From assembly GCA_027063755.1 (NCBI GenBank), contig JAMORD010000055.1, positions 1 through 10,591 of the forward strand: a stretch of DNA of 10,591 bases. The letters run 5' to 3'. This DNA comes from a bacterium (lineage in GTDB: Bacteria > Coprothermobacterota > Coprothermobacteria > Coprothermobacterales > JAADFF01). The notes beneath the pieces were generated by a model. The model made no database searches and was not told the DNA's origin. It worked only from the letters and a program-made list of their open reading frames with translations. This document shows, piece by piece, positions 1,534-8,789 of the stretch. The number at the start of each line of letters is the position of its first letter. The stretch's first letter is position 1. Made by a program: the position numbers and the translations under genes.

Positions 1534-3048
1534 ATGGCTATTAGGGATGTTGTTGTTGTCGGTGCAGGTCTATCGGGACTGATGGCCGTATATAGGTTGA
1601 AAGCCTTGGGTATCCCTACAATATGGGTTGTTGGTGGTGGTATAGACCGTTCCAACAGTGTGCTTGCTCAGGGTGGAATAGCCGCTGCGCTTTCTCCCGA
1701 AGATAGTGTGGATGTTCACCTGAAAGATACTGTTATTGCCGGTGATGGCCTTGTTGAAGAAGATGTGGCCCGAGGAATTATTTCTGAGGGAGCACAGATT
1801 GTTTCACATCTTGTTCATCTTGGTGTGCCGTTTGATAAAAATCCCGATGGTACCCTTAATATGACAAGGGAAGGAGCCCACTCTCGTAGGCGTATTCTCC
1901 ATATCAAAGATGAGACAGGTAAGGGTATGATGCACTATCTTTTCAAGTTTGTCTCAGGAGTGGAGAAAGTAGAGGGTAGGCTTGTTGACCTTCTTGTAAA
2001 AGATGGAGAGGCATACGGTATTAGGGTGAAGACAAACGGCCACACAGAAGATATATATGCATCTGCTGTGATACTGGCAACGGGTGGGTATACGGGCATG
2101 TATATTCACTCAACAGGTAATGCCGACCAAGATGGGGTGGGTATAGCTCTTGCATCCTATTATGGTGCTGTGTTGAGGGATTCAGAATTTATACAATTTC
2201 ACCCTACTGTGTTTTTTGGTGGGGGCAAGGCATTTCTTATTACAGAGGCCGTGAGGGGTGAAGGTGCTATTCTACTTGACAGTAAAGGAGAAAGATTTAT
2301 GGTAGACGAACATCCCATGGCAGAGCTTGCACCCAGAGATGTGGTTGCCCGTGCTATACACCGTCGTGGTGGAGCCTACCTTGATTTTAGTCCTATTCAG
2401 AAAAAAGGTATAGACATAGAAGAGAGATTTCCGCATATTGTTGATGTTCTTCGTAAAGAAGGGATAGACCCCCTAAAGGAGCTTGTGCCAGTGTATCCAG
2501 CTGCCCATTACTATATTGGTGGCATAAAGGTAGACTGGTGGGGCCAAAGTGACATAAAGAGACTTATGGTGATAGGTGAAGCTGCATCAACGGGTCTTCA
2601 CGGTGCAAACAGATTGGCATCTAACTCACTGCTTGAGTGTGTGGTTATGGGCTATCGCTCAACATTTAGGGCTTGGTGGTACGCTACACAAGAGCCCCAC
2701 AACGAAAGACCTCGGTTTGATATGAAAGAATATAAAAATATATCTCCAGATGGACATCTTAAGGGCCAGATGAGCCGTCACGGTGGTATTATACGCAACG
2801 GTTATGGATTGAGAAAAGTTGCCCGGAAACTGCTATCACATATGGAAAATGGTAATTTGCCTTTTGGTTCCCAGCGTTGGGCCCAGATTATGCTATCGGG
2901 GGCCACTATATGCAGTGGGTGGTGGCGAACAGAAAGCAGAGGTGCCCACTACCGTGAAGATTATCCAGAAAAGTGGAAGGAAAAAAAGCATAGCCATATT
3001 ACGCTAAAGGAAATAAAGCAGTGTCTTGAAAGGATAGGAGGAGTGTAG
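1534..3048 (+). CDS. nadB: L-aspartate oxidase NadB
   Basis: NadB is a cytoplasmic FAD flavoenzyme that oxidises L-aspartate to iminoaspartate, the first step of de novo NAD synthesis. At 504 residues it has the usual family length. The N-terminal FAD dinucleotide fold shows GAGLSG at residues 10-15. SVLAQGGIAAAL at 42-53 and GAHSRRRILH at 114-123 are typical of the NadB/succinate dehydrogenase flavoprotein superfamily. FIQFHPT at 219-225, TEAVRGEGAIL at 237-247, PRDVVARAI at 267-275 and AAHYYIGGI at 323-331 form the substrate-binding core. HGANRLASNSLLE at 356-368 contacts FAD. The C-terminal helical domain ends with ESRGAHYREDYP at 467-478, characteristic of this superfamily. The NadB-type HSRRRILH motif and the adjacent nadC favour NadB over SdhA or FrdA. 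AAGGTGAT at 1523-1530 supports the ATG. The stop is one base before the nadC start, implying co-translation. Confidence 0.96.
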   Translation: MAIRDVVVVGAGLSGLMAVYRLKALGIPTIWVVGGGIDRSNSVLAQGGIAAALSPEDSVDVHLKDTVIAGDGLVEEDVARGIISEGAQIVSHLVHLGVPFDKNPDGTLNMTREGAHSRRRILHIKDETGKGMMHYLFKFVSGVEKVEGRLVDLLVKDGEAYGIRVKTNGHTEDIYASAVILATGGYTGMYIHSTGNADQDGVGIALASYYGAVLRDSEFIQFHPTVFFGGGKAFLITEAVRGEGAILLDSKGERFMVDEHPMAELAPRDVVARAIHRRGGAYLDFSPIQKKGIDIEERFPHIVDVLRKEGIDPLKELVPVYPAAHYYIGGIKVDWWGQSDIKRLMVIGEAASTGLHGANRLASNSLLECVVMGYRSTFRAWWYATQEPHNERPRFDMKEYKNISPDGHLKGQMSRHGGIIRNGYGLRKVARKLLSHMENGNLPFGSQRWAQIMLSGATICSGWWRTESRGAHYREDYPEKWKEKKHSHITLKEIKQCLERIGGV

Positions 3049-3049
3049 T

Positions 3050-3898
3050 ATGTTTAGCCCTGTGTATGTAAGAGAAAGTGTAAAAAGATTTTTATCTGAA
3101 GATTTGCACTTTGGCGATATCTCTATTCCCTATGTATCACAGATGAAAACACCTGTTCGTGGTGAGTTTATAGCCAAAGATGAGGGGGTACTTGCAGGTA
3201 GTATATTTGCCAAGTATTTCTATGAAGAGATTGCCCCCGTAGACATATATTGGTATAAAGAAGATGGTGAAAGTTTTCGTATAGGTGATGTGCTTGGATA
3301 TATAGAGGGACCTGCCTATGCCCTTTTGATGGTAGAACGCACATATCTTAATCTTCTACAGAGACTCAGTGGTATAGCCACCTCTGCCCGCAAGTTTGTC
3401 TCGTCTTTGCCTGAGGGGTTTACCCTTCTTGATACCCGTAAGACGACCCCAGGGCTGAGACTGTTTGAGAAATATGCCTCATGGGTAGGGGGCAGTGTCA
3501 ATCACCGATACACACTCATGGATGCAGTGATGATAAAGGATAATCACATTATGGTCTTTGGTTCTATAACAAAGGCCGTAGAGGCCGTAAGGAAGACGGC
3601 TCCGTATACGGCTAAGATAGAGGTTGAATGTGAAAGTGTAGATATGGTTCTTGAGGCGGCTGGGCTTGGTGTAGATATCATCATGCTTGACAATATGAAT
3701 GATGACGATATATTGAAATCTATAGAGATTATTAGGGATATCTCACCAACAACAGCTATTGAGATATCTGGGGGTATCACAGCCGATAGGGTAAAGACAC
3801 TGGCCGAGAAAGGTGTAATTGGTGTATATGTTTCCTCATCTTCAACTATTACAAAGAGTAGATGGCTTGATATCTCCTTTGAGGTGATGAAGGTTTGA
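3050..3898 (+). CDS. nadC: Nicotinate-nucleotide pyrophosphorylase (quinolinate phosphoribosyltransferase) NadC
   Basis: NadC converts quinolinate and PRPP to nicotinate mononucleotide, CO2 and pyrophosphate in the cytoplasm, the third step of de novo NAD synthesis. Family length is normal at 282 residues. Visible motifs are EDLHFGDI at 17-24, ERTYLNLLQRLSGIAT at 96-111, DTRKTTPGLR at 128-137, the NHRYTLMDAVMIKDNH block at 151-166, EVE at 191-193, IMLDNM at 211-216 and EISGGI at 238-243. These supply the basic pocket (Arg130, Lys131, His152, Arg153, Lys163) and acidic residues expected for quinolinate and PRPP. One departure is the loop after the last barrel strand. Family members usually read VDxISxGxxTHS, but here it is VYVSSSSTITKS at 259-270, losing the Gly and the His. 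AGGAGG at 3036-3041 supports the ATG. The stop codon overlaps the fluC start. Confidence 0.95.
   Translation: MFSPVYVRESVKRFLSEDLHFGDISIPYVSQMKTPVRGEFIAKDEGVLAGSIFAKYFYEEIAPVDIYWYKEDGESFRIGDVLGYIEGPAYALLMVERTYLNLLQRLSGIATSARKFVSSLPEGFTLLDTRKTTPGLRLFEKYASWVGGSVNHRYTLMDAVMIKDNHIMVFGSITKAVEAVRKTAPYTAKIEVECESVDMVLEAAGLGVDIIMLDNMNDDDILKSIEIIRDISPTTAIEISGGITADRVKTLAEKGVIGVYVSSSSTITKSRWLDISFEVMKV
3881..3888 (+). promoter_or_regulatory. Ribosome binding site of fluC inside nadC
   Basis: GAGGTGAT is an eight-base match to the usual bacterial 16S 3' tail. It lies 6 bases before the TTG at 3895, within the last codons of nadC. It supports TTG as the genuine fluC start. Confidence 0.75.
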
Positions 3899-4257
3899 AG
3901 TACCTTATCGTATTTATCGGTGGTGGATTTGGTGCGTTGTCTCGCTTTGTGCTTGGTGGTCTTGTGCAGAATGTCTACGGAGGGGATTTTCCTCTTGGTA
4001 CATTTGCCGTAAATATGATAGGTTCATTCCTTATAGGTTTTCTCTTTTCCCTTGAGGGGTTTGGTTTTCTGTCCTATGAGAGTCGTCTTCTTCTTATGGT
4101 TGGCTTCCTTGGGGGATTTACAACATTCTCATCGTTTATGCTTGAAAGTGTCAACCTTATACCACTACCTCAGTTTTGGCTCAATGTTATAGGTCAGGTG
4201 GGTATAGGACTTATTAGTGTATATGCCGGCATTATTGTGGGGAGGTGGATTGTATGA
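3895..4257 (+). CDS. fluC: Fluoride ion channel FluC/CrcB
   Basis: FluC is a small inner-membrane protein that forms an antiparallel dimer and lets fluoride leave the cytoplasm, protecting enzymes such as enolase. The 120-residue chain has four hydrophobic segments at about 3-24, 34-53, 64-83 and 96-117. The family signatures are present: GGFGALSRF at 10-18, PLGTFAVNMIGSFLIG at 33-48 with pore Asn40, and GFLGGFTTFSSF at 70-81. The last one holds the sodium-site GG and the phenylalanine pair Phe75 and Phe78 of the fluoride pathway. A single gene is enough for a homodimer. The start is TTG, whose bases overlap the nadC stop as TTGA. The stop overlaps the next gene as ATGA, so the three genes are probably translationally coupled. 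As an internal operon gene it has no room for its own fluoride riboswitch, and I see none. Confidence 0.95.
   Translation: MKYLIVFIGGGFGALSRFVLGGLVQNVYGGDFPLGTFAVNMIGSFLIGFLFSLEGFGFLSYESRLLLMVGFLGGFTTFSSFMLESVNLIPLPQFWLNVIGQVGIGLISVYAGIIVGRWIV
4241..4247 (+). promoter_or_regulatory. Ribosome binding site deciding the DUF190 gene start
   Basis: GGAGGTG lies 6 bases before the ATG at 4254, at the very end of fluC. It favours that ATG over the in-frame GTG at 4245, which falls inside the ribosome binding site. Confidence 0.75.
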
Positions 4258-4604
4258 AGATCGTAGAAGAAGATGTACTGCTGCGAATATTTATAGGTGA
4301 TAGTGATAGGTGCCAAAGGTGTGATAAGTATAAGGGCAAGCACATGTATGAGGCCATTGTCCTAAAGGCCAAAGAAATGGGGCTTGCTGGTGCTACGGTG
4401 CTAAGAGGTATTATGGGGTTTGGTGGTGCCAGCAGAGTGCATACAGTATCTATTCTGAGGCTTTCGGAAGATATGCCTGTTGTTATAGAGATTGTAGATA
4501 AGATGGAAAATATCAAGCCCCTCCTTGAGTGGCTTGATGATGTCATGGTGGAGGGGCTTATTACCGTGGAAAAGGTTATGGTGTATAAGTACACCAAGGG
4601 CTAA
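4254..4604 (+). CDS. DUF190 family protein, FluC-associated, with a CxxC insertion
   Basis: This 116-residue soluble protein belongs to DUF190, a small alpha/beta family often encoded next to fluC/crcB. Its fold has been compared with PII-like signalling proteins, and its function is not established. Family-typical stretches are LLRIFIGDSD at 9-18, KGKHMYEAIVLKAKEMGLAG at 27-46, ATVLRGIMGFG at 47-57, SILRLSEDMPVVIEIVD at 66-82, and GLITVEKVMVYKY at 101-113. Between the first strand and first helix lies a cysteine pair, Cys20-Gln-Arg-Cys23. As I remember family members, GESDKYKGK runs straight on, so this looks like an insertion of about five residues that could bind metal or act in redox. The ATG overlaps the fluC stop (ATGA), which suggests coupled translation. 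Its last four bases overlap the end of nadA on the other strand. Confidence 0.85.
   Translation: MKIVEEDVLLRIFIGDSDRCQRCDKYKGKHMYEAIVLKAKEMGLAGATVLRGIMGFGGASRVHTVSILRLSEDMPVVIEIVDKMENIKPLLEWLDDVMVEGLITVEKVMVYKYTKG
4515..4559. repeat. Perfect 10-bp inverted repeat within the DUF190 gene, possible terminator for nadA
   Basis: AAGCCCCTCC at 4515-4524 is exactly complementary to GGAGGGGCTT at 4550-4559, with a 25-base loop. Seven of the ten pairs are G-C. Read on the minus strand it sits 42 bases past the nadA stop codon and is followed by GATATTTTCC, a modest T-rich run. It may terminate or stabilise nadA mRNA although it lies within a gene on the plus strand. The role is inferred. Confidence 0.4.
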
Positions 4605-5509
4605 TGGCTTAGTTCAAGCATTTTTTCAATGCCAGCCTTTGCCTTCTTGGCGATGTGTTCAGGTACATGCACAGGGTATATCTCTTCTTTAAGACTTCTC
4701 AGTATATCTTCGGCTGTGATAGCCTTCATGTTTTTGCATATCATTGGTCGCTTTACGGCATAAAACTCTTTATCTGGAAAGAGTGTTTTTAGTCTATAGA
4801 TCATACCTACATCTGTGCCGACAATAAACTCTTTAACATCAGGGTGTGCTTCAACATACTTCACCATGCCGCTTGTTGATGTTACAACATCTGCATATTT
4901 CCATACCTCAGGTGGTGTTTCTGCGTGCACCATTACATGGGCCTCTGGGTGCTTTTTTTTCACATCCAGTATGTCTTCTGGTCTAAGGTAATTGTGTACA
5001 TAACAAAAACCATCGTGGAATATAAACTCTTTATCGGGAAAGTGTTTGGCTACCCATCTGCCCAAGTTCCTGTCTGGTAGGAAGATAATCTTCTTGGCAT
5101 CTACCTTTTCTATAATTTTTAGCGCACTGGCAGAGGTAACCACAACATCACACTCTGCCTTGACTGCTGCTGTTGTGTTGATATAGCATGCCACCAGGGC
5201 ATCGGGATGCTGAGCCTTAAGGCGTTTTACATCTTGTGGTTCTATGGTCCATGCCATACCACAACCTGCCATGGGTACAGGATGGAGTATTGTTTTCTCT
5301 GGTGCCAGTATCTTGGCTGTTTCTGCCATAAATCTTACACCGGCAAAAATAATTTTTTCCTGAGGTATTTCTGTAATCTTACGTGCCAGTGCCAAAGAAT
5401 CTCCTAAAAAGTCTGCAACATCTTGAACGATTGGTGACTGATAGTTATGGGCTACGATAATGATATCTTTTTCTTTCTTAAGTTTCAGTATTTCATCTTT
5501 AATAGGCAC
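4601..5509 (-). CDS. nadA: Quinolinate synthase NadA ([4Fe-4S] enzyme)
   Basis: NadA condenses iminoaspartate from NadB with dihydroxyacetone phosphate to make quinolinate, using an oxygen-sensitive [4Fe-4S] cluster. The 302-residue length matches the compact form of the enzyme. Three family repeats each give one cluster cysteine: Cys83 in PMAGCGMA, Cys169 in HDGFCYVH and Cys258 in MICKNMK. Other typical motifs are VAHNYQSP at 19-26, GDSLALAR at 36-43, FAGVRFMAETAKIL at 55-68, CYINTTAAVKAECDVVVTSA at 108-127, VHAETPPEV at 194-202, and STSGM at 211-215. The start is GTG, supported by AAAGGAGG on the minus strand at 5518-5525, 8 bases upstream and overlapping the end of the preceding membrane-protein gene. 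The gene converges on the plus-strand operon holding nadB and nadC, and its stop overlaps the DUF190 stop by four bases. Confidence 0.96.
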   Translation of the reverse strand: MPIKDEILKLKKEKDIIIVAHNYQSPIVQDVADFLGDSLALARKITEIPQEKIIFAGVRFMAETAKILAPEKTILHPVPMAGCGMAWTIEPQDVKRLKAQHPDALVACYINTTAAVKAECDVVVTSASALKIIEKVDAKKIIFLPDRNLGRWVAKHFPDKEFIFHDGFCYVHNYLRPEDILDVKKKHPEAHVMVHAETPPEVWKYADVVTSTSGMVKYVEAHPDVKEFIVGTDVGMIYRLKTLFPDKEFYAVKRPMICKNMKAITAEDILRSLKEEIYPVHVPEHIAKKAKAGIEKMLELSH

Positions 5510-5512
5510 TGT

Positions 5513-6100
5513 TTATTCCTCCTTTGTGTTGGACTGTATAAGTATGTTGATGTAATACTGTTTCCCATCGCTTATCATGGTTTTTAATTTTTCAAGGTCA
5601 ATGTTCTTGGTATAGTAAGCCATGGCCTGGTCATTTTGCTCTTTGTAGAGCATTTCTAAAGTTTGACTAAGGTAATATGCCACAGATGAAATCTCTGTGC
5701 GAAATTCTTTCAGTTTAGTATCTATATTTTCATCACCACTTTCAACAGATATCACTTTTAGTGTTAGACCGGCTACATTGAAGGCATGTGTGAGTGTTTC
5801 TTGGGCAGTGGCAAAATCGCCGTCTGTCATCTGATCGTGAGCTGTTTTAAGGTCGGTATACAGCACTTCTGCAAGATCATATCCTACAATAGCCTTCTCT
5901 TGTACTGTCGTTGTTGCAGTTCTTGTTATCGTGGCTGTGCTTATGGTTTCCTCTACAATCTGAGATTTCAGTTTCTGGTAGTAATTCCACATAAAGAAAA
6001 TAAGCGCAATATTGATGACAAGTATAATGATCCATAAAATAGGACTATCTTTTTTCTTCTGTTGTGTTTCTTGACCATTTGCGTTTTCGTTTTCTGCCAT
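5513..6100 (-). CDS. Unknown single-pass membrane protein with an extracytoplasmic helical domain, 195 aa
   Basis: I do not recognise this family. The protein has a short polar, lysine-rich N-terminus (residues 1-19, with KKK at 15-17), then one strongly hydrophobic segment at about 20-38. A short amphipathic stretch follows, then a Thr/Ser/Ala-rich linker (STATITRTATTTVQ, 54-67) and a largely helical domain at 70-190. The layout suggests a membrane anchor with the N-terminus inside and the helical domain outside. The helices contain spaced FATAQETLTHAF and LSQTLEML elements that look alpha-hairpin or TPR-like. There are no cysteines and no catalytic motif. AAGGGAGGG on the minus strand at 6108-6116 supports the ATG. 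nadA starts 3 bases after this gene ends, so the two are probably co-transcribed, but nothing in the protein itself points to NAD metabolism. Confidence 0.75.
   Translation of the reverse strand: MAENENANGQETQQKKKDSPILWIIILVINIALIFFMWNYYQKLKSQIVEETISTATITRTATTTVQEKAIVGYDLAEVLYTDLKTAHDQMTDGDFATAQETLTHAFNVAGLTLKVISVESGDENIDTKLKEFRTEISSVAYYLSQTLEMLYKEQNDQAMAYYTKNIDLEKLKTMISDGKQYYINILIQSNTKEE
5518..5525 (-). promoter_or_regulatory. Ribosome binding site of nadA
   Basis: On the minus strand the sequence AAAGGAGG stands 8 bases before the GTG start of nadA. It lies in the last codons of the upstream membrane-protein gene, so nadA is probably translated from the same message. Confidence 0.7.
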
Positions 6101-6806: not shown

Positions 6807-6860
6807 AAACTTTTCTTATCTGGTAAACCTCATGTGGAGGGTATCATAAAAATCTTTGGC

Positions 6861-6867
6861 GGAGGTG
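6861..6867 (+). promoter_or_regulatory. Ribosome binding site deciding the repeat-protein start
   Basis: GGAGGTG lies 6 bases before the ATG at 6874. An upstream in-frame TTG at 6856 would place this site inside the coding region, so ATG 6874 is the better start. Confidence 0.75.
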
Positions 6868-6873
6868 AATGGC

Positions 6874-8670
6874 ATGGTTATACTGAAAGATCATGCACTG
6901 ATGATTCAAAGTCTTTATAGAAAAGGTGAAGTTGATGTTAGCTTTTATAGTGATTCTCAGCGTGAAACACTATGGCAGCTTGAACTTGCAGGTCTTGTGA
7001 GGTTGGCAGGTATTGATGAATATGAGCTGACATTTGCAGGTAATATGCTTGCAGAGATTATGGAGAACCTTGTAGACGCAGGTAAACTGCCAAAGCCTGA
7101 GGAGTGGGAAGACTCCTTTAGATGGGTTGGCAGTGAAGTCATATCCATGATTAGGTATAGCCGTCAGGCTCAGGGTAGGGTAAAAGGTAGAGTTGCTGAA
7201 GAACTCTCAAAGAGAGGGTTTGCCGAGGATGGCAAACTAACTCCAGAGGCAGAGGCGCTTTCTGATGTTTACGATGCAAGCCACCCCAAACTGGTTATTA
7301 CCAAAGAACTTGCAGAATATCTGAAGGATATGCCACCAGGTCCTGGTGAAAGGGGAAGGCTTCCTGCATCTGGTGATAAACTTCTTGAGCTTGAGTCTAT
7401 GAGGCTTATTGCATTTTCTGTTCCAACATCTGACATTTATGCCCTTACAGGACTTGGCCAGCAGATTCGCATGGCCCTTAAGAAGGGTGCAGCAACATTT
7501 ATGGATGTTGTTATTGACGAGAGCATCTTGGAACTTATTGCCCGTGCTGTGAGAGGTGATATGCTTTCTGAATCTGAGAAAGAGATACTCATGGTTCGTG
7601 GTTTTATGGGGATGAACGAGGAGATACTTCCAGCCGGGGAGCATCTCTATCTTGCCTATAAGATTTATCGCAAAGGTGTTTACAAGAAAATACCGACATT
7701 CCATATTGATGACCTTGAGATTAAGCTCATGGATGTTATTGAAACTCTGTGGGAGAAGTTTGAGCAGAATCCTGAGATATTCCCCACAGTAGATCAGATC
7801 AAGAAGTATGTAAAAGAGAACTGGGAGTTTAAAGAGTATGATGTGCCCCTGGCACTGTTTAACCTTGAGGCATTTGACCTTATTAAATCCCGTGAGCACC
7901 GAAAGGGTAGTGGCAAGTATCTTGTTTATGAAATAACCCCTTATGGTAAAGAGGTTATGGAGAACCGTACTGGCAAAGATGTAAACTCCGAGGCAGTTAA
8001 ATCCATTACCATCACCCGTCTTGAGTTTGCAGCACCCAATGTAGAGTGGTATGGCCTTGCCCGTGAGGAAGGTCTTGTATCTGATGCATATCCTACCAAG
8101 GCAGGTCTGATGTTTGCCAGACTGGCAACAGAAGTTCGCAAGAGACCACTTATTACCAAGATAGAGGCAAAGCTGCTTGGTCGTATACCGTTTACAAGAG
8201 GACTTTTTGTAGAAGAGGAACTTATTCAGCCATATTTCAAAGGAGAAGAAGACGATGCCCGTGTTGGTTTGCAGAAGCTTGAGGCTAAGGGACTTGTTAA
8301 TCTACTACCTACAGGTGTTGTTGTGCTTACACAGGCTGGCCAATATATGAAGAGGGCCCTTTCTGGTACACCAACAGGATTGGCAACACCTGTTACACCA
8401 CTTGTTATCAGACTCCTGGAGGCAGTTAGGGATGTTGGTTCTCTCTATGTCAAGGAGCACAAAGTGAGAATTAAACCAGAAAACTGGAAACATGTAGAAA
8501 AAGCTGTGGGGGTAGACCCCGATACATTTAATAAGACCCTTGTCCTTGCCCGTGAGGCTAAGTTTATCTTGACAAACAGCTTGTCTGAGGCAGGTCAATA
8601 TCTGCTTAAAGCTGTTGATGAAATTAATAAGAAAGAGCACGATTGGGTAGAAGTTCTTATAGAAGCATAA
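6874..8670 (+). CDS. Large protein of repeated winged-helix-like units (resembles DUF505), 598 aa
   Basis: No enzyme motif is recognisable. Overall character recalls DUF505, an uncharacterised family I associate with archaea and thermophilic bacteria; this assignment is from memory and tentative. A degenerate unit recurs: a Leu-rich helix ending LExxGLV or similar, a short variable hairpin, then an (L/I)TxxGxxLxxxL helix. Copies appear near residues 36-62 (LELAGLVRL, LTFAGNML), 110-132 (LSKRGF, LTPEAEAL), 172-202 (LESMRLIAF, LTGLGQQI), 240-264 (MVRGFMGM, LPAGEHLYL), 328-364 (LFNLEAFDLI, ITPYGKEVM), 395-420 (LAREEGLV, PTKAGLMFARL), 468-496 (LEAKGLVNL, LTQAGQYM) and 558-582 (LAREAKFIL, LSEAGQYLL). 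This matches the recognition-helix and wing pattern of winged-helix domains strung in tandem. The protein is soluble, rich in Lys and Glu, with no signal peptide and no cysteines. A strong terminator follows. A nucleic-acid-binding or scaffolding role is only inference. Confidence 0.7.
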   Translation: MVILKDHALMIQSLYRKGEVDVSFYSDSQRETLWQLELAGLVRLAGIDEYELTFAGNMLAEIMENLVDAGKLPKPEEWEDSFRWVGSEVISMIRYSRQAQGRVKGRVAEELSKRGFAEDGKLTPEAEALSDVYDASHPKLVITKELAEYLKDMPPGPGERGRLPASGDKLLELESMRLIAFSVPTSDIYALTGLGQQIRMALKKGAATFMDVVIDESILELIARAVRGDMLSESEKEILMVRGFMGMNEEILPAGEHLYLAYKIYRKGVYKKIPTFHIDDLEIKLMDVIETLWEKFEQNPEIFPTVDQIKKYVKENWEFKEYDVPLALFNLEAFDLIKSREHRKGSGKYLVYEITPYGKEVMENRTGKDVNSEAVKSITITRLEFAAPNVEWYGLAREEGLVSDAYPTKAGLMFARLATEVRKRPLITKIEAKLLGRIPFTRGLFVEEELIQPYFKGEEDDARVGLQKLEAKGLVNLLPTGVVVLTQAGQYMKRALSGTPTGLATPVTPLVIRLLEAVRDVGSLYVKEHKVRIKPENWKHVEKAVGVDPDTFNKTLVLAREAKFILTNSLSEAGQYLLKAVDEINKKEHDWVEVLIEA

Positions 8671-8789
8671 ATTGTTGTAGAATAGCGACTTGGAAAGGGG
8701 GGACATGTGTCTCCCCTTTGTTTTTGTAGCAGAAAAGATATACAACTTTGTGGTTATGGAGAGATTTATTATTGTGTTATGTTTACAAA
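8671..8789. other. Convergent intergenic region between the repeat protein and ftsI
   Basis: These 119 bases separate two converging genes. Apart from the intrinsic terminator at 8694-8726 for the plus-strand gene, I see no gene or RNA. I also see no clear hairpin with a T-run that would stop minus-strand transcripts leaving ftsI, and the plus-strand hairpin lacks a T-run on its other side. Confidence 0.6.
8694..8726 (+). terminator. Rho-independent terminator of the plsY/repeat-protein unit
   Basis: AAAGGGG (8694-8700) pairs with CCCCTTT (8713-8719). The stem continues inward through GGACA and TGTCT with one G-U pair, giving about 12 base pairs and a very small loop. TTTGTTTTTG follows. It begins 24 bases after the stop codon. 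This is a classic intrinsic terminator for plus-strand transcription. Confidence 0.88.

Follow-up and report, generated by a model that had tools for sequence, protein, structure and literature searches.

An acidic DUF505 protein of eight predicted winged-helix-like units is a candidate scaffold of a KaiC-linked module in thermophiles

Introduction

The RNA polymerase III subunit C82/RPC62 is a multi-winged-helix chain that acts via protein contacts. That winged helices arranged in tandem can make up the architecture of a protein complex has a precedent in ESCRT-II (PMC9192718). The DUF505 family has already been named but is uncharacterised, and the protein studied here is a member of it. A literature search on the family name yielded no described function in the sources examined, and some of the matches pertained to DUF5059; literature found under PF04458 dealt, going by the abstract, with an unrelated subject, and searches for COG1542 and TIGR03879 returned no literature under either name.

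The gene under study resides on a contig of a Dictyoglomota bacterium (JAMORD010000055.1), of which we analyzed a stretch of 10,591 nucleotides; this entire stretch is referred to as the window. A first-pass annotation of the window, made from the sequence alone, had described the encoded protein as a tandem array of about eight degenerate winged-helix-like repeats without an attached enzymatic or ligand domain, and had considered a DNA- or RNA-binding scaffold, a chromosome-organising protein and a protein-interaction platform as possible roles. Here, we compare this protein with its family, with solved winged-helix proteins and with the gene neighbourhoods of its relatives.

Results

The DUF505 gene and its surroundings

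The open reading frame at positions 6874-8670 of the plus strand encodes a protein of 598 amino acids. A direct reading of the sequence identified the Shine-Dalgarno-like motif GGAGGTG at positions 6861-6867 (+), upstream of the ATG codon at 6874, and the alignment of the homologs starts at the Met encoded by this codon. Because of this motif and the start Met shared with the relatives, we prefer the ATG codon at 6874 over the upstream TTG codon at 6856. A pattern scan revealed a terminator-like stem-loop with 11 pairs followed by a T tract 3' of the stop codon (positions 8694-8719, plus strand), which represents a consensus match only.

The gene upstream of that for the DUF505 protein is plsY. 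The minus strand encodes, at positions 5513-6100, a protein of 195 amino acids with one N-terminal membrane segment predicted by eye; it has no Pfam match above the cut-off and is kept beside plsY and the DUF505 gene in a sister genome. An NAD biosynthesis cluster occupies positions 1534-5509, and comprises genes for an FAD-binding protein that is likely NadB (1534-3048), for the quinolinate phosphoribosyltransferase NadC (3050-3898) and, in convergent orientation, for the quinolinate synthase NadA (4601-5509). Genes for a CrcB-like protein (3895-4257) and a DUF190 protein (4245-4604) are packed among them. Models of anti-phage defence systems matched neither the window protein nor two neighbour families.

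Family membership and distribution

A likeness to DUF505 had been suggested in the first-pass annotation, and it was borne out by a full-length match of the window protein to the Pfam model PF04458 (E = 4.6e-196; 653.4 bits versus a cut-off of 28.7), to which all 50 aligned homologs match as well. The window protein covers profile positions 1-319 and 358-622. The intervening segment corresponds to a helical insert of 38-52 residues that long-form members of the family (from Aquificota, Caldisericota and others) carry between helices 2 and 3 of the fifth structural unit. Since the window protein and other short-form members lack this insert and are still strong PF04458 matches, we regard it as a variable and not as a defining feature of DUF505. 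The corresponding stretch in long-form loci (L015, L018, L004 and others) is 60 or 74 residues long, compared to 22 in the window, and holds a conserved KEYKxLxxxYGR motif (including YGR).

The closest named relative of the window protein stems from a Dictyoglomota MAG (96% identity), and DUF505 was present in only two of the nine Dictyoglomota genomes, both of which belong to the genus of the window. Further relatives were found in Aquificota, Caldifarciminota (WOR-3, Hydrothermota), Aminicenantes, Thermodesulfobacteriota, Caldisericota, MAGs of Bacteroidota/Chlorobiota, and others; Thermotoga maritima and Methanocaldococcus jannaschii, which served as controls, possess the family as well. 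Phyla are intermixed in the DUF505 tree, and the window protein groups with that of a Thermotogaceae MAG (55% identity; SH-aLRT of 100%). The family may have been spread by horizontal transfer, and mis-binning of MAGs is possible for single records. As the search of viral contigs found no relative, there is no sign that DUF505 is a phage gene. A sequence search for a solved relative returned nothing significant.

The repeats alternate between two classes

To detect internal repeats, we compared the profile of the 50-sequence alignment with itself. This self-comparison gave matches with E-values of 1.2e-12 (residues 2-361 on 141-492), 9.8e-9 (32-268 on 327-587) and 2.5e-5 (31-140 on 464-588), and the best value without realignment was 3.8e-11. 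In contrast, no E-value better than 0.087 came from twenty column shuffles, and the reversed profile gave 0.02, so that a chance origin of the repeats was rejected.

Units 1, 3, 5, and 7 are mutually alike (each pair reaching a probability of 52-94% in its better direction, with most values above 80%), and so are units 2, 4, and 8 (67-92% in the better direction). This likeness among odd-numbered and among even-numbered units indicates an (A-B)x4 array; the protein is thus more ordered than the first-pass annotation had seen, consisting of four alternating A-B pairs. The weakest of the units, unit 6, has a best profile match of 26% (to unit 8) and is recognisable mainly through its position and its predicted secondary structure.

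Predicted structure of the eight units

An AlphaFold2 model built from the 50 sequences had a mean pLDDT of 93.1 and a pTM of 0.91, and it predicts a winged-helix-like array of eight units. Each of the motif positions noted in the first-pass annotation (residues 36, 110, 172, 240, 328, 395, 468, and 558) lies in this model where a helix ends, with a short strand or turn and then another helix coming next; together with the significant self-comparison, the confident model upholds the description of the protein as eight degenerate winged-helix-like repeats. According to the prediction, the A units carry a beta-hairpin wing, and the B units are mostly reduced to three helices.

All units are encoded on the plus strand. 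The A class comprises unit 1 (residues 1-71; positions 6874-7086), unit 3 (residues 140-205; 7291-7488), unit 5 (residues 276-366; 7699-7971), and unit 7 (residues 425-500; 8146-8373), and the B class comprises unit 2 (residues 85-137; 7126-7284), unit 4 (residues 209-270; 7498-7683), unit 6 (residues 368-423; 7975-8142), and unit 8 (residues 505-588; 8386-8637). In structure comparisons with VIA, where according to the tool's note a Z below 8 can reflect a common arrangement and a Z under ~13 is weak for helical bundles, unit 1 matched the pNOB8 centromere-binding protein 4rs8 (Z 9.6, rmsd 1.9, 68 aligned, residues 4-71), unit 5 the PadR-family protein Rv1176c 8ioi (Z 11.7, rmsd 2.1, 83 aligned, residues 276-368), unit 7 MarR 4jba (Z 10.4, rmsd 2.6, 75 aligned, residues 424-503), and unit 8, whose winged-helix matches range from Z 7.3 to 9.0, the N-terminal region of Rio2 (Z 9.0, rmsd 4.5, 84 aligned) and the MarR-like protein 3oop (Z 8.9, rmsd 3.0, 76 aligned). 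The matches of unit 8 were obtained with a model of residues 500-598 alone (pLDDT 88.5). Units 1, 5, and 7 have the H1-H2-H3-hairpin topology of solved winged helices. Unit 3 possesses a hairpin (E179-181/E188-191) and is assigned via profile likeness only (unit 5, 91%; unit 7, 88%); unit 1 likewise matches unit 7 in its profile (91%). Units 2, 4, and 6 are modelled as three helices plus a turn and are therefore degenerate in comparison with a full winged helix; the winged-helix kinship of units 2 and 4 is seen by profile only (unit 2 with unit 4, 92%; unit 4 with unit 2, 89-92%, and with unit 8, 66-71%).

At the level of domain models, PadR (PF03551) reached 18.5 bits in unit 5, below its gathering cut-off of 27. 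In agreement with the earlier description, neither Pfam nor NCBIfam contained an enzymatic or ligand domain matching the protein. Foldseek, queried with the complete model, returned no match over the entire chain that could be trusted, the best row being C82 with a TM of 0.09.

Acidic character of the array

The window protein has a pI of 5.41 and a net charge of -14, and all of the 50 homologs are acidic (pI 5.04-6.05; net charge -8 to -31). Averaged over the family, the recognition helices of the four A units carry charges of -3.1, -0.5, -1.6, and -0.6 and their wings charges of -1.2, -0.6, -0.28, and -1.40, whereas 13 PadR-like controls from related genomes have a mean wing charge of +2.3 and a mean helix charge of -0.1. 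A wing charge of +3 was found in the window protein for unit 5, alone among the A units, and it is not conserved. Hence, there are no conserved basic recognition helices or wings in the A units, which are neutral to negative in comparison with PadR. With such acidic or neutral helices and wings, the two DNA-related roles considered in the first-pass annotation, that of a nucleic-acid-binding protein and that of a chromosome organiser, found no support when judged by the conserved basic faces that this annotation had itself named as the sign of nucleic-acid binding.

We therefore consider it unlikely that DUF505 uses its tandem winged helices to bind nucleic acids, be it as a multi-site transcription regulator or as an architectural chromosome protein. 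The fold matches are mostly to DNA-binding regulators (PadR, MarR, and a centromere-binding AspA-like protein), and other DUF505 members match the HTH_45, HxlR, and HVO_A0261_N models; however, a fold match speaks for shape and not for function, and the helical insert of the long forms separates the second and third helices of unit 5. Several Lys and Arg residues are near-invariant (K5, R83, R114, R177, R513, and R532). They might form part of a non-canonical site for nucleic acids or a ligand, and the net charge calculated from the sequence is compatible with a local basic patch, but it would argue against a classical reading of DNA.

Gene neighbourhoods and co-occurrence

Our neighbourhood survey comprised 84 bacterial loci with neighbours. 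A near_KaiC gene (TIGR03879; one representative per group scored, the others assigned by BLAST likeness) is found at position -1 on the same strand in 11 of the 84 loci, eight of them from WOR-3/Hydrothermota and three from MAGs of Bacteroidota/Chlorobiota. These two groups occupy separate, well-supported parts of the DUF505 tree. A gene for a KaiC-like ATPase is present at position -2, again on the same strand, in six of the eight WOR-3/Hydrothermota loci, and two representatives scored against TIGR03878 gave E-values of 1.5e-131 and 2.5e-132. The gene for an SDH-type ClpP-like serine proteinase (PF01972) lies nearby in 13 loci, mostly just downstream; exceptions are L065, where it is just upstream, and L046, where it is six genes away.

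In the window and in most other loci, DUF505 does not adjoin KaiC or near_KaiC. The genome of the window has near_KaiC on another contig, and the KaiC-like ATPase is present in the sister species, again on another contig. The near_KaiC protein of the window's genome (L094:856-1224) has 122 amino acids, compared to about 200 in most relatives, and is apparently shortened. Loci of the Desulfurobacteriaceae type (L018-L020, L029-L031, L086, and L003) possess at position +1 a same-strand gene whose conserved product has up to 374 amino acids; the L029 copy has no Pfam match.

Across genomes, near_KaiC was present in four of five genomes with DUF505 versus 4/55 others (p = 7e-4), in four of five versus 4/49 others in a second sample from another phylum (p = 1e-3), and the two genes also co-occurred within family f16 (p = 0.02); these p values ignore phylogeny as well as thermophily or temperature, and both samples share G021. 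The link between DUF505 and KaiC is partial, since several genomes contain near_KaiC and KaiC without DUF505. Co-occurrence of the SDH proteinase was dropped as evidence, because every one of the nine Dictyoglomota genomes has this gene and only its adjacency is informative.

Discussion

The picture drawn by the first-pass annotation holds in its description of the protein, namely eight units, no enzymatic or ligand domain, and membership in DUF505; for nucleic-acid binding and chromosome organisation it finds no support. Its third suggestion, a protein-interaction platform, fits better than the roles tied to DNA and draws support from the neighbourhood of the KaiC-like ATPase and near_KaiC. 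Because the would-be DNA-reading surfaces are acidic and a KaiC-type ATPase is a neighbour in several thermophiles, a scaffold is more likely than DNA binding. We tentatively propose that DUF505, whose four A-B pairs would stem from one duplicated pair, serves as the scaffold of a KaiC-linked module and not as a DNA reader.

In such a module, the A-B pair would have arisen once, and its duplication to four copies would have given rise to a rigid, soluble scaffold or adaptor for protein interactions. Judging from the neighbourhoods in other thermophiles, its partners may be the KaiC-like ATPase (TIGR03878), the near_KaiC regulatory protein (TIGR03879), or both, and the ClpP-like SDH-type serine proteinase (PF01972) might be a further partner or a component that processes clients. 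DUF505 would thereby belong to a thermophile module centred on KaiC, with a role in signalling or regulation. A more specific version, in which the KaiC-like ATPase, near_KaiC, and the SDH-type protease are assembled on the eight-unit winged-helix rod as a dedicated, hitherto undescribed thermophile module, strikes us as improbable; if it were true, regulated proteolysis or signalling would become nucleotide-dependent. The acidic (A-B)x4 array and the clustering with KaiC in separate thermophile lineages lead to a testable hypothesis on KaiC-type signalling, one that covers a family of unknown function also found in T. maritima and M. jannaschii.

About as improbable as the dedicated protease module is a function as a sensor of small molecules or stress, in which the degenerate winged helices would form ligand pockets and pass signals on to a partner, for instance the KaiC-like ATPase. 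The conserved uncharged motifs FRWxGSE, MPPGPxxxxLP, LEaMRLIAFSVPxSDVY, LLPAGE, and SGxPxG possibly exceed the needs of the fold, but they may equally reflect the packing of units against each other; furthermore, a ligand-domain match is lacking in Pfam and NCBIfam, and among the 50 homologs a single His is invariant and no Cys is conserved. We consider it very unlikely, finally, that DUF505 has a structural or assembly role in a machine for transcription or RNA processing, as a subunit with an architecture like that of C82/RPC62. The C82/RPC62 chains that head the Foldseek rows for the whole model do so with weak scores (E 3e-3 and worse, TM ~0.1, rmsd ~25 A), so that the two have in common no more than the notion of several winged helices in one chain, and no transcription genes occur among the conserved neighbours.

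The scaffold that we tentatively favour can be set against the known systems as follows. Within DUF505 (PF04458), the window protein shares its start and its conserved motifs with the rest of the family, and it represents the short form, without profile positions ~320-357, the helical insert of unit 5. With C82/RPC62 of RNA polymerase III, Foldseek found no significant structural superposition. The Vps22 and Vps25 proteins of ESCRT-II possess two winged helices per chain compared to eight in DUF505, and we regard them as a precedent for the architecture only, with no claim of homology. Individual A units share their fold with PadR and MarR regulators (VIA Z 9-12); these regulators, however, are dimers of single winged helices with basic wings, whereas DUF505 combines eight units in one chain and presents acidic faces.
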